The notes under the pieces were generated by a model. It did not search any database and was not told the origin of the DNA. It was given only the letters and a program-made list of their open reading frames with translations. The position numbers and the translations under genes were made by a program. A stretch of 64,000 bases of DNA from contig MJGA01000002.1 in the NCBI GenBank assembly GCA_001910725.1, forward strand, positions 1,798,001 through 1,862,000, written 5' to 3'. Origin of the DNA: Phanerodontia chrysosporium. Its lineage: Eukaryota; Basidiomycota; Agaricomycetes; Polyporales; Phanerochaetaceae. Position 1 is the first letter of the stretch. Every line of letters starts with the position of its first letter. Below, piece after piece: positions 56,536-64,000 of this stretch.

Positions 56536-58480
56536 ATGAAGCCTCGAATCTTGCGTCTACTTGATGGCAACGTCCACAGAAACCACGATATTCAACAATT
56601 TGTGCGCAATGTCTGGCAAGGAGAAGTCGACGTGCACAGACTATCACCAGACGTTCGGATTACTCTGCCCAAACCCCTCCGAAGTAAGGAAGCGCCTACT
56701 GCGGTTCAATCCATGCTAATAACGCGTGTCAGGGCTTCTCGGCTGTTACGACGAGCGCATCTTGAGGCGCATTAAACTGGAGGCCCCGACAGACGACGAG
56801 CTTGATGAGGCGCAGGACGTGTGGGAGAGGCAACATCGTCCGCGTATGCGTTGGATATGCAGACACGGGACTGGGAAGGAGTGAAATGCATCCGAAGAAC
56901 CCGATGGCATCGGGCGAAGGCGTTTGTCCACATCGTCAAGAGCGAACACCCATCCTCAGACGAATGCGTTCAAGAACCCGTCGCCTCCTGCTCCTCCAGG
57001 AAGGATGGCCTCACCGACGCTGAACTGCACACCCTGGAGTATATCCTCCCGCTCATGTCCTCCAATGCACGCGACTGGACCAGCGGGATCGTTATCCGCG
57101 ACCACGAGGCCACCTTCTGGTATGTCGATCGAATGGGCCTCGTGCTGTCGCAAACCTTCAACATCTTCCTCGAACCTTACCACCTGTGGACGGCTGGACT
57201 CGCGATCGCCAAGGCCGCGACTACCCCCATGGGCATCTGCCCGCTTATCACCTTTACATGCCCTGAGGAGGTCGACTTCCGCAAGGCTCGGTTGGACGTC
57301 CCTGGGGTTCGTGATGCCGAAGGTGCCCAGATTGACGCTGTCACCCTCAAGTGCGCAGGCGACGAGGAAGTGCCTCTCACCACAACGACAATAGTCGGCC
57401 GCGGGACGGCAGTCTTCAGCGCTCTGGCCACTGGCAAGACGAAGCAGGCTTTTGGCACCGACCCTCTCGCCGTGAAGATGTCCTGGCCGCCTGCTCATCA
57501 GCACGCCGAGGACTAGATCATTCGGGCAGTGCGGCGGACACTCAAGAAGCATAAGCCTCAATTTCTCCCGTCTATCCCCGAGTTGAAGTGTTCTCTGGAC
57601 CGGTCGATGGAAGAGTGTGGACTCCCGCGGGCTTCTCTCGGGTTGCCTCTCCCGTCTGAAGAGCGCATATTTCGCTTGCAAGTGATGGAGGAGTACCTGC
57701 CTCTGGCGACAATCAGTGATGCCGAAGAGTTTAAGGACGTGTTCCTAGACGTCGTGCAAGGTGAGTTGTTATCCAGCGCTTACTACGCCGAGCTGCCCTG
57801 AGACCATCCACACAGCTCATCACTGGGTATATGAGATTGCCAATATCCTGCAGATGGATATCAATCTTGAGAACATCATGGTTGCCGAGCGCGACGGCGA
57901 AATTCGAGGGGTTCTGGGTGACTGGGACCTCGCAGGCGCACCCATCCCCCGCAACCGCCCTAGGAACGAGCGGAAACGCTTCGGCTCTCGACCGTTCATG
58001 TCGGCAGACTTTTACGCGTCCTGGTGGACGGGCGAGCACTTCTACCGGCACGACCTCGAGTCTTTCTACTATGCCCTCGCCGCGTTCTGCGCAGGCTTCA
58101 ACCCCGAGCATCACTCCGTCTGCCTTCCCAAGGACTGGATCACGGAGGCGCAGATCGGAAGGGCCGACAAGAAGCGGGCTCTACCGGAATATCATGACGC
58201 ATTTTTCCGCCATGCAGCTCCAGGCTTCCGCGAGCTCGCCGACAACTGGGTTGTCGCACTTGGCGAGCTCTTCCGCAAGACAATTAATGTGACCTACGCT
58301 CAGCTGAACTCCATGCACGCTATCCATCTGAAGGCCATGAAGGACAACGACCATGAATTGGCTGCCGAATCAGCGGACCTTATGTCGAAGTATATGGACG
58401 ACCGGGAAAGAGACGTAACCTACCGCAAGTTCTTACAATGTCTCGGTGTAGATGATCGTTCGTGCAGGTGCACTCATTAA
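56536..58480 (+). pseudogene. FunK1-type protein kinase with an in-frame stop codon
   Basis: FunK1 kinases form a large family in Agaricomycetes. Segments in order: MKPRILRLLDGNVHRNHDIQ, GLLGCYDERILRRIKLEAPT, then (after an apparent 44-nt intron or frameshift near 56819) TRDWEGVKCIRRTRWHRAKA, EYILPLMSSNARDWTSGIVI, GRGTAVFSALATGKTK, VKMSWPP with the presumed ATP-site Lys, then a TAG at 57514-57516, then IIRAVRRTLKKHKPQF in the same frame. Related kinases read ...EDEIIRAV... here, so one GAG-to-TAG change explains the stop. After a further intron, MDINLENIM replaces the usual HRDIS.GNIM catalytic loop (His and Arg lost, Asp kept) and GDWDLA is the DFG-equivalent. The nonsense codon and altered loop together point to an inactive gene. 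Confidence 0.8.
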
Positions 58481-60810: not shown

Positions 60811-63800
60811 CTACACGAACAGCCAGCGACCACGCTGTTCGGCCCATTTGGAGAGCTCCTCCGTGCTGACAGCCGCGAAGTCCTCGCGAAGAGGCGTCCG
60901 GACCGGGCCCTCGGCAGGAGTCTCGGGCGGGGTGAGGGGTGTCAGGACGCCGGCCTTGGCAGTGCCCCCGTGGTCGTAGGGCGAGAGGATTCCGAGGCCG
61001 GAGCCGCCCACCGCGGTGAAGTACGGGTCGAAGTTCGCTGCGGAGAGCTCCTTCGCGAGCGCGTCCAGCTCGGAGGCCGGGAAGTCTACGCGAGCACGTG
61101 TAAGAAATGCAAGGACCGGGTGCGCGTCGTGGACATGCACGTACCGTCAGGAACGAGCGTGACGGCGCAGCCGCCGCCGCCTGCGCCCGTCAGCTTCGTG
61201 CTCAGGTTGTAGGGCGCCGAAGAGCACTTGAGACGGATGAGCTCGAGCGAGTCGTGCGACACACCGAGGGAGGCGAGATAGCTGTGATTCTCCTCGATGA
61301 GAGCCTAAGAATAACACGCCACATGTTAGGAGCCTTTAGGGGTGCATACTGCGAGTTAAACGTACCGAAAGCGCATTGAGGAGCTCCTCGCGGGGAAGCT
61401 CAGGATCATCTAGTGCACGCCTCGCTTCATCGGCGATGCTCTGTATCGCCTCGAACATGCTGTTGACAACATGGGGCTCCTACGGAGATCGTCAGACACC
61501 GGAGGCTAGGTTACCGACAGCCGGGCATACCTCGAGCTTCCTCTGCGCAACCCGCGCTACTAGAGCCTTCGTATCTCGTCCAACTCTGGAATCGGTGAGC
61601 AAGAACCGCAGGGACTTGAAGCTGTACGTGAAATGTCGAATATGAATATCGGTACCCCTAATAGGCAACCAAAGACATACCCGTGTATCTTCTCCATTCC
61701 GCTCTTGCGTCCGAAGCCCGGCTTGGTGTACGCCAGAGCACCACCAAACACGACGATCGCGTTGTCGACACCGCTTGGGTTGCCGTGCAGCACCTTCTCG
61801 GAGACAAACGCCCAGCGGTTGATCTCTTCAGCAATGGCTGGCGGGATCGCACGCCTGCCTTGGTGGGAGATGTGTACGTGGCCAGGGCTGGAGAACGAGG
61901 GAGCGCGGCTCCGTGGCGGGAGGCGGGGAAGTTCGATGCGCTGATGCAGGAGCAGGAGTGCCGTGGCGACGCAAGCTGAGAACGCTGCAGACGATCCCAG
62001 GCCAGCACCGACGGGCAGCGTGGAACGGGCCGTGAAGTTGAAGGAAGGCCGCTCGTCGCCATGCGTCATGGTCATGTAGAGATAGAGGAAAGCCACAGCA
62101 GCTGCATGCGCCTTCGGGGGCATCTTGTGTGCCGGCGGGAGGGCACGTTCGTTAATTGCTTGCAGCAAACGCTGATCGAGCTGCTCGGGGTGTTCGTCCC
62201 CTGGCGGTACTGGAGATACTGCGTCCCATGGTAGGTTGTCTAGGTCCCACTCGTGGCGATAATCCTCAATATTGGTGAAATGAACTGAGATTTTGTTATC
62301 ATGACGAGGTGAGGTCAGCCCGTAGCAGCGTAGATCCACCGAAGCAGCCACGGCGGTCTAAGGAGATTGAGTGAGTACCGAGGGACGGGTGGCATAATAA
62401 AATCACTCACAACTCCGTGGACAACAGCATGCTCGCCGAAGAGGATGACCTTGCCTGGCGCACTAACGAACCACTCACGGTCCTCCCGGCGCCTAGTGGT
62501 CTCGACGGGAGGCTCGCCAAGCGCAAGCTTCTCCACGGCCTTGTTCACAGCGGTGGGAATGCGGACGAAGTCGTTCGCAGCCATGGTAATTGCACCAGCA
62601 TCGAGAAGCGCGTGTCGGAGGTCGTCGAGAAGATCCGCCGGGTCCTCGATACCAACGCAGAGGCGGATGAGGTCCTCGGGAAGACCACGCGCAGCGCGGG
62701 TTGCGGGGTCAATAGAGGCGTGTCTGTGGATGAAAACTTGTGAGAAAGGTACGTAACGCAATTCACGAGCCAAGACACGCACGACATCACGCAAGGCATA
62801 CTGATGAGACTGTTCACAGCACCAAAGCTGACACTGATTCCCCACAAACGGGTAGCACCGACGATACGTTCGCTGAGCTCCTTGTCACCAGTTTCGAATG
62901 AAAGCACCGCGCCATAGCCTAGTCAAGTGTAAGCAATTAGTTGAGAAGCTAGAGTCGCGTGACTTACCGTCAGCGATGCGCTCGTGGACTTCTTTTCCTG
63001 GGTGACCAGGGAGACCAGGGTAATGAGTGACAAATCCGAGCCGCTGCAGCATCTGTGCGACAAGCATAGCAGTCGACTGCTGACGGTCCATGCGAATTGC
63101 CAATGTCTTTGTGCCTCGAAGGAGAAGGAACGAGTCGAAGGGCGTCAAAGCATTGCCGACCGCGTTGATGGTGAAAGCCATTTGCTAGGACGAGCCGTGA
63201 GTATCTGCACACTCAATGAATGGGAACTCCTTTACCTTCGCGAGGTCGTCTCTGTTGCATGTGATGACACCAGCCATGAGGTCGTGGTGACCACTGAGGT
63301 ACTTGGTAGCACTGTCGTAGACAATGTCCGCACCGTGCTCGAGCGGGCGCTGGAGGTACGGGCTCATCATGGTATTGTCCACGACAATGACGGCGTCGGG
63401 GCACTTCTCCTTGACCATAGAGCTGATAGCGGCGATGTCGACAATCTTCAGCAGAGGGTTGGTAGGGCTCTCGAGTAGGACCATAGCCGTCTTGCCAGGA
63501 TGGAGGTGCGGGAGGACCGACGTCGGCTCGGTGGTATCGACATGGTGGACAGTGACTCCCATATGCGTGCGGATGTAAGTGAGCAGGCGGTTCGTGCCGC
63601 CGTAGAGATCGTCGCCCGCAATGACTTCCTGACCGGGCTTCAAGATACGGGTGATGACGTCCAAAGCTGCCATCCCGGAGGAGACGACGAACGCGTGGTT
63701 CGCAGAGGATATCTTGGCCAGATGGTGTTCTACGTGACGGTCATGTCAGTTGTCACCGGTGTTTTCGCCCTGAACACGAGGCATGAGTTGCTCACCGAGA

Positions 63801-64000
63801 TGAGTTCTGGTAGGGTTACCGCTCCTGCTGTAGTCATATTCTCCGCCGACCCCTTTGAAAGTGGCTGTTTGATAGATGGGTACGCTGGAGCTTCCATGCT
63901 GGTCCTTGTGTCCGGGATTCGGATTCTCGACGGTCGCGCACAAGGTCGAGAAGCGGTACGGCTTGCGGGAGCGAGAGATCGAGGGGGACTCTGGCTCCGG
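60811..64000 (-). CDS. Fused cystathionine beta-lyase-type enzyme and mevalonate kinase (5' end outside window)
   Basis: Ten visible exons (64000-63796, 63729-63236, 63184-62968, 62918-62783, 62723-62411, 62357-61681, 61621-61531, 61479-61366, 61304-61145, 61085-60811) keep one frame for 893 codons. The first half is a Cys/Met-metabolism PLP enzyme: SSSVPIYQTATF, EYDYSRSGNPTRTHLEHHLA, SSGMAALDVITRI, GDDLYGGTNRLL, VVDNTMMSPYLQRPLEHGAD, then DSATKYLSGHHDLMAGVI with the PLP Lys, and SMPCVMSHASIDPATRAARG, RLCVGIEDPADLLDDLRHAL. Exon 62723-62411 continues without stop through a linker (FVRIPTAVNKAVEKLALGEP) into mevalonate kinase: WFVSAPGKVILFGEHAVVHG, LPVGAGLGSSAAFSACVATA, KVLHGNPSGVDNAIVVFGGA, KSLRFLLTDSRVGRDTKALV and KLTGAGGGGCAVTLVPDG. 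It ends EQRGRWLFV. The kinase converts mevalonate to phosphomevalonate; the lyase half cleaves cystathionine to homocysteine. An in-frame ACCATGG at 62580-62586 could also start the kinase alone. Confidence 0.85.

Follow-up and report, generated by a model that had tools for sequence, protein, structure and literature searches.

At the end of the window (the whole stretch of 64,000 nucleotides of Phanerodontia chrysosporium DNA analysed here) lies a gene predicted to encode one bifunctional polypeptide, in which a cystathionine beta-lyase (CBL) is followed by a flexible tether and a mevalonate kinase (MVK); we identify it, with a probability of about 0.93, as the known basidiomycete metC-MVK fusion. 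Among the club fungi examined this arrangement is the usual one; it occurs widely across the phylum and joins two otherwise unrelated pathways. It is also a fusion already on record, in two independent descriptions from 2012 (PMC3342255; PMC3468542), and the suggestion in the original prediction that it might be undescribed does not hold: further reports came in 2013 and 2014, from Pleurocybella (PMC3720577) and Lignosus (PMC4129116).

The accessible parts of the first description record metC-MVK from 12 basidiomycetes, Laccaria bicolor excepted, as the only MVK homologue in those species, with an average length of about 886 aa and a suggested origin in the basidiomycete ancestor (PMC3342255). 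Work on STR3 of the rice blast fungus describes, in its accessible text, ~450 extra C-terminal, mevalonate kinase-like residues on all Basidiomycota STR3 orthologues examined, except that of Postia placenta; there, no standalone MVK was found in basidiomycetes, and the function of the fusion was left to be determined (PMC3468542). That exception may hold for one strain or one gene model only, because a 909-aa fusion from a Postia placenta strain (P0006) is among the matches listed in the present searches. This fused Postia protein, a kinase-half tree with outgroups, a count of start codons and an account of residue conservation are modest additions to the published record.

Many entries among the matches listed are named “cystathionine beta-lyase” alone, a label under which the kinase may look absent. 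In Ustilago maydis, MVK was the only enzyme of its module that KEGG did not predict, and the main text, in its accessible part, names the enzyme without mention of cystathionine (PMC7396576).

Gene structure and neighborhood

On the minus strand, the fusion gene occupies window coordinates 64048 to 60811 (Table 1) and has 10 exons encoding 909 aa. Its ATG is at 64048, so that the first 48 bases of coding sequence lie beyond the window end and were taken from the surrounding genome; an in-frame stop codon is found 30 nt upstream of the ATG. The spliced coding sequence is 2,730 nt long and free of internal stops, and the nine introns, all GT-AG and 49-66 nt each, total 508 nt. The lyase and kinase peptides quoted in the original prediction are both on the minus strand, and with the introns removed they fall in one protein. 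Its claim that the two halves meet in frame within one exon proved exact: in the spliced model the junction lies inside exon 62411-62723, with no stop between the halves.

Table 1. Positions of the fusion gene, its parts and one further ORF in the window.
Feature	Position	Strand	Basis
Fusion gene CBL-MVK (metC-MVK), part within the window	60811..64000	-	Spliced model and full-length P. sordida homologue
Predicted cystathionine beta-lyase half, residues 1-413 (exons 1-4 plus the beginning of exon 5)	62585..64000	-	PF01053, TIGR01329, 1ibj
Codon of the putative PLP-binding lysine K227 (SATKYLSGHHD)	63302..63304	-	K in 224/224 aligned rows
Exon 5, with lyase C-terminus, linker and kinase N-terminus in one frame	62411..62723	-	Spliced model
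Linker, residues 414-449 (MAANDFVRIP...RREDR), ~36 aa	62477..62584	-	Variable length, low pLDDT in a relative's model
Predicted mevalonate kinase half, residues 450-909 (from late exon 5 through exon 10, with the stop codon)	60811..62476	-	PF00288, 2r3v/1kvk, conserved residues
ORF matching Pkinase_fungal (PF17667)	57749-58477	+	59 bits

Past the window end, the fusion gene is adjoined by two terpene-synthase-like genes, at 65378-66550 (+) and 68017-66896 (-), whose hand-spliced models match PF19086 with 152 and 165 bits. The nearer of them is ~1.3 kb from the fusion gene and divergently transcribed, and an ORF beyond the pair matches WD40 proteins. That a gene of the mevalonate pathway neighbors terpene synthases may be coincidental or may reflect a loose cluster.

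Identity of the two halves

Residue conservation was assessed on an alignment of 224 rows, comprising the window protein and 223 of the 224 distinct proteins from the whole-protein and profile searches described below (P0263, shorter than 800 aa, was dropped). The two enzyme identities and the intactness of their motifs, as originally proposed, are backed by these rows together with domain scores and solved relatives.

In the lyase half, PF01053 (Cys_Met_Meta_PP) matches residues 48-406 with 422 bits, and TIGR01329, the model for eukaryotic-type cystathionine beta-lyase, scores 526.3 bits against a curated cut-off of 487.5. The best solved relative is the Arabidopsis cystathionine beta-lyase 1ibj, in a match that spans the full domain, PLP lysine included. 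K227, Y127, D202 and R387 are invariant (224/224 rows), and S361 is serine in 216 rows and threonine in the other 8.

In the kinase half, PF00288 (GHMP_kinases_N) is above its cut-off in the part from residue 450; PF08544 (GHMP_kinases_C) reaches 20.9 bits against a cut-off of 21, and is a label carried by many relatives among the matches listed. Among proteins of solved structure, its best relatives are human (2r3v) and rat (1kvk) mevalonate kinase (E about 1e-62). If the catalytic residues of the rat enzyme are K13, S146, E193 and D204, as we assume, their counterparts as read from the alignment are K458 (224/224), S593 (223/224), E658 (224/224) and D669 (224/224). S666 is likewise invariant in all 224 rows and the GAGGGG motif is conserved; T714, in the RDTK motif, is threonine in 214 rows and glycine in 10. 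The glycine rows are P0318, P0329, P0331, P0334, P0335, P0337, P0339, P0340, P0343 and P0344, the named ones being Ustilago and relatives (smuts). A strict text pattern of three motifs is satisfied by 213 of the 224 rows; of the 11 others, six deviate from the literal SAPGK or GAGGGG string and the remainder from the lyase string alone, K227 being kept throughout.

At about residues 612-645 the protein has a stretch that exceeds its rat MVK counterpart in length and holds an HVHxSHQGRR block conserved in relatives. A conserved 16-aa insertion in the MVK half has been described from 7 fungi in the accessible part of the first report (PMC3342255); this stretch is at most a candidate for it.

Distribution among fungi

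Homologues carrying both domains, a search for which was among the checks put forward with the original prediction, are plentiful. With the whole protein as query, 1,046 proteins reached E <= 0.001, and of the best 120 of these, 118 carry both PF01053 and PF00288, the PF00288 label being absent from the other two (P0032, P0085). The closest among the matches listed are from Phanerochaete sordida, of the Polyporales lineage (94% identity, 100% coverage), and P. carnosa (89%); against P. sordida the linker itself is 94% identical and ungapped. In a profile search built from four distant relatives, all of the best 120 of 4,590 matches (three of them the query's own members) have both domain labels. 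The matches listed there include Puccinia, Rhodotorula, Mixia, Ustilago, Malassezia, Tilletia, Dacryopinax and Calocera, and the names cover Pucciniomycotina, Ustilaginomycotina, Dacrymycetes and Agaricomycetes; the Mixia and Exobasidium lineages were checked, and those of the remaining named members are assumed to follow established taxonomy.

A search with the kinase half was open to proteins of ~253-805 aa, which excluded most full-length fusions. Among its best 120 of 6,738 matches, the basidiomycete-named rows are fragments of the fusion or truncated models of it, with no native kinase start among them; those from Inonotus (P0143) and Phaffia (P0201) comprise inner kinase parts only. The named standalone kinases among the matches listed belong to other fungal phyla, with 39-42% identity. 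Three unnamed proteins (P0161, P0177, P0196) have 18-83 residues ahead of the kinase; they could have arisen by a later split of the fusion or be incomplete gene predictions.

Some predicted proteins depart from the usual dimensions. Those of Malassezia psittaci (P0252) and M. yamatoensis (P0253) are fusions of 1,249 and 1,210 aa, ~300 residues beyond the window protein, the extra residues being either an additional fused domain or a product of faulty gene prediction. Three Lentinula proteins (P0146, P0152, P0153) of 720-739 aa have a kinase half 48% identical to that of the window protein, without the PF00288 label: either the copy has decayed or diverged, or the gene models are poor.

Other loci in the same genome

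A protein search of the P. chrysosporium genome with the kinase half matched no second MVK, all 5 matches being exons of the fusion locus. Four other loci have PF00288 above its cut-off and one has PF08544, none of them matched by the MVK query. A close second CBL copy was also considered and rejected, since no exon at the other loci matching the CBL query exceeds 42% identity. For exons of the two top-scoring Cys/Met loci among these, the best-scoring families are cystathionine gamma-synthase/lyase type (C124) and O-acetylhomoserine sulfhydrylase (C61), the latter family also giving the best score for an exon on C102; TIGR01329 matches other Cys/Met loci weakly, and further loci lie on C33, C1 and C58:394-395 kb.

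Origin of the fusion

Trees were built from a hand-picked 30 of the 224 fused rows, to which 10 hand-picked standalone fungal MVKs were added for the kinase half. In the MVK-half tree, one branch (100/96) separates the 30 fused rows from the 10 standalone kinases. In the CBL-half tree, made from the same 30 rows with no outgroup, every subphylum forms one group, and CBL and MVK distances correlate with r = 0.82 over 435 pairs. Taken together, the two trees and the distance correlation favor a single early fusion: most likely, as far as sequence comparison can tell, it took place once in an early basidiomycete ancestor, before the three subphyla split, with vertical inheritance since. Pucciniomycotina are not one clade in the MVK-half tree, where the rusts stand apart (88/85), and this is a point against perfect agreement of the halves. 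A recent local fusion is ruled out by the distribution and by both half trees.

One polypeptide or two

Is the protein made, and does it remain, in one piece? An artefact of gene modeling or assembly, merging two adjacent genes, has practically no probability: the same fusion is found in independent genomes, mRNA of a relative carries it, and the junction sits within one exon. The full-length homologues of P. sordida (94%) and P. carnosa (89%) exclude chance and misassembly as well. It is also very unlikely, to a lesser degree, that the halves are made or matured separately, by way of an internal promoter, an internal translation start or proteolysis of the linker. A linker of variable length and low model confidence could allow easy cutting, and the window protein does have a methionine, M414, at the lyase-linker boundary; against this, M414 is found in 5/224 rows, and 126/224 have no methionine at all between residues 407 and 457 (98/224 have at least one). 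Among fused rows with the SAPGK motif, 49/221 have a methionine at most 20 residues upstream of it, which can be counted in favor of separate starts in those rows; since they are the only ones with a methionine nearby, internal initiation is unlikely to yield a separate kinase in general. In standalone MVKs, the motif lies at most 20 residues from Met1 in 37/37 proteins that have it (38 examined). The accessible description of a Pleurocybella unigene, derived from mycelial mRNA, places both domains on it (PMC3720577), a further argument against separate production. Three of the present matches, P0003 (908 aa), P0025 (914 aa) and P0104 (906 aa), come from contigs of 2,915-2,922 bases, barely beyond their coding sequences; these are likely spliced transcripts, we infer, because they are too short to contain the 508 nt of introns seen here.

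By analogy with the transcript of the relative, and with most rows having no internal methionine, the polypeptide likely stays intact, which would mean forced co-expression and 1:1 stoichiometry of the two enzymes. The linker stretch (residues 407-451) ranges from 34 to 134 residues over the 224 rows, with a median of 49, and in a structure model of the P. sordida relative, of moderate confidence overall (mean pLDDT 78, pTM 0.53), linker residues 425-443 have pLDDT < 50. Because of this variable length and low model confidence, it is read as a putative tether more than as a conserved interface. Its first half is partly conserved in the 121 rows of the whole-protein search set (e.g., A429 at 0.99), and its sequence differs in distant relatives.

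Proposed function and retention

The lyase half would be a PLP-dependent CBL, converting cystathionine to homocysteine, pyruvate and ammonia, and the kinase half a GHMP-family MVK, converting mevalonate and ATP to 5-phosphomevalonate. Both active sites would work independently in a protein that presumably stays uncut, the fusion fixing co-expression of the two enzymes. The CBL and MVK reactions have no metabolite in common, and channelling is therefore not expected. Our preferred reason for retention would be historical lock-in: a single-copy kinase may have lost its own promoter and start codon, so that splitting the gene would need both to be regained.

Alternatively, the fusion could be kept by functional coupling, with a mixed assembly or shared regulation tying the supply of methionine (and S-adenosylmethionine) to isoprenoid and sterol synthesis. 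Sterol C-24 methylation consumes S-adenosylmethionine; the fusion is kept in named members of all three basidiomycete subphyla, with no second MVK matched in this genome, and the partial conservation of the linker's first half, A429 included, also speaks for such coupling. We nevertheless consider it unlikely: the linker varies from 34 to 134 residues and is unlike in sequence in distant relatives, the two reactions lack a common metabolite, and neutral lock-in accounts for retention equally well. A more elaborate version, to which we would give somewhat less weight again, is that lyase tetramers scaffold kinase dimers in a mixed-pathway assembly, through which the state of the methionine pathway tunes isoprenoid flux, or the reverse. 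If true, it would imply a coupling of sulfur and sterol metabolism across basidiomycetes.

No functional study of the fused protein was found in the literature searched, which was mostly open-access. The fusion offers a ready case for a general question: is an ancient fusion of enzymes without shared metabolites functional, or merely locked in?

Comparison with known systems

Each half resembles a known separate enzyme. The lyase part matches eukaryotic CBL (Arabidopsis 1ibj; TIGR01329) over the whole domain, with the PLP lysine, and differs from it in having a kinase attached at its C-terminus. The kinase part shares the GHMP family and catalytic motifs with standalone MVKs, such as rat 1kvk and those of other fungal phyla; in the latter, the SAPGK-type motif is preceded by 5-15 residues (37 fungal rows), whereas here an entire lyase and linker come before it.

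The closest counterpart is the published metC-MVK or STR3-mevalonate kinase fusion, which in the accessible parts of both 2012 reports has the same order, lyase N-terminal and kinase C-terminal (PMC3342255; PMC3468542). Lengths also agree, with 909 aa here as against an average of about 886 (PMC3342255) and 918 aa in Lignosus (PMC4129116), as given in the accessible text of each. Nothing essential, as far as the accessible descriptions go, distinguishes the window gene, a Phanerochaete-like member, from the published fusion (PMC3342255; PMC3468542).
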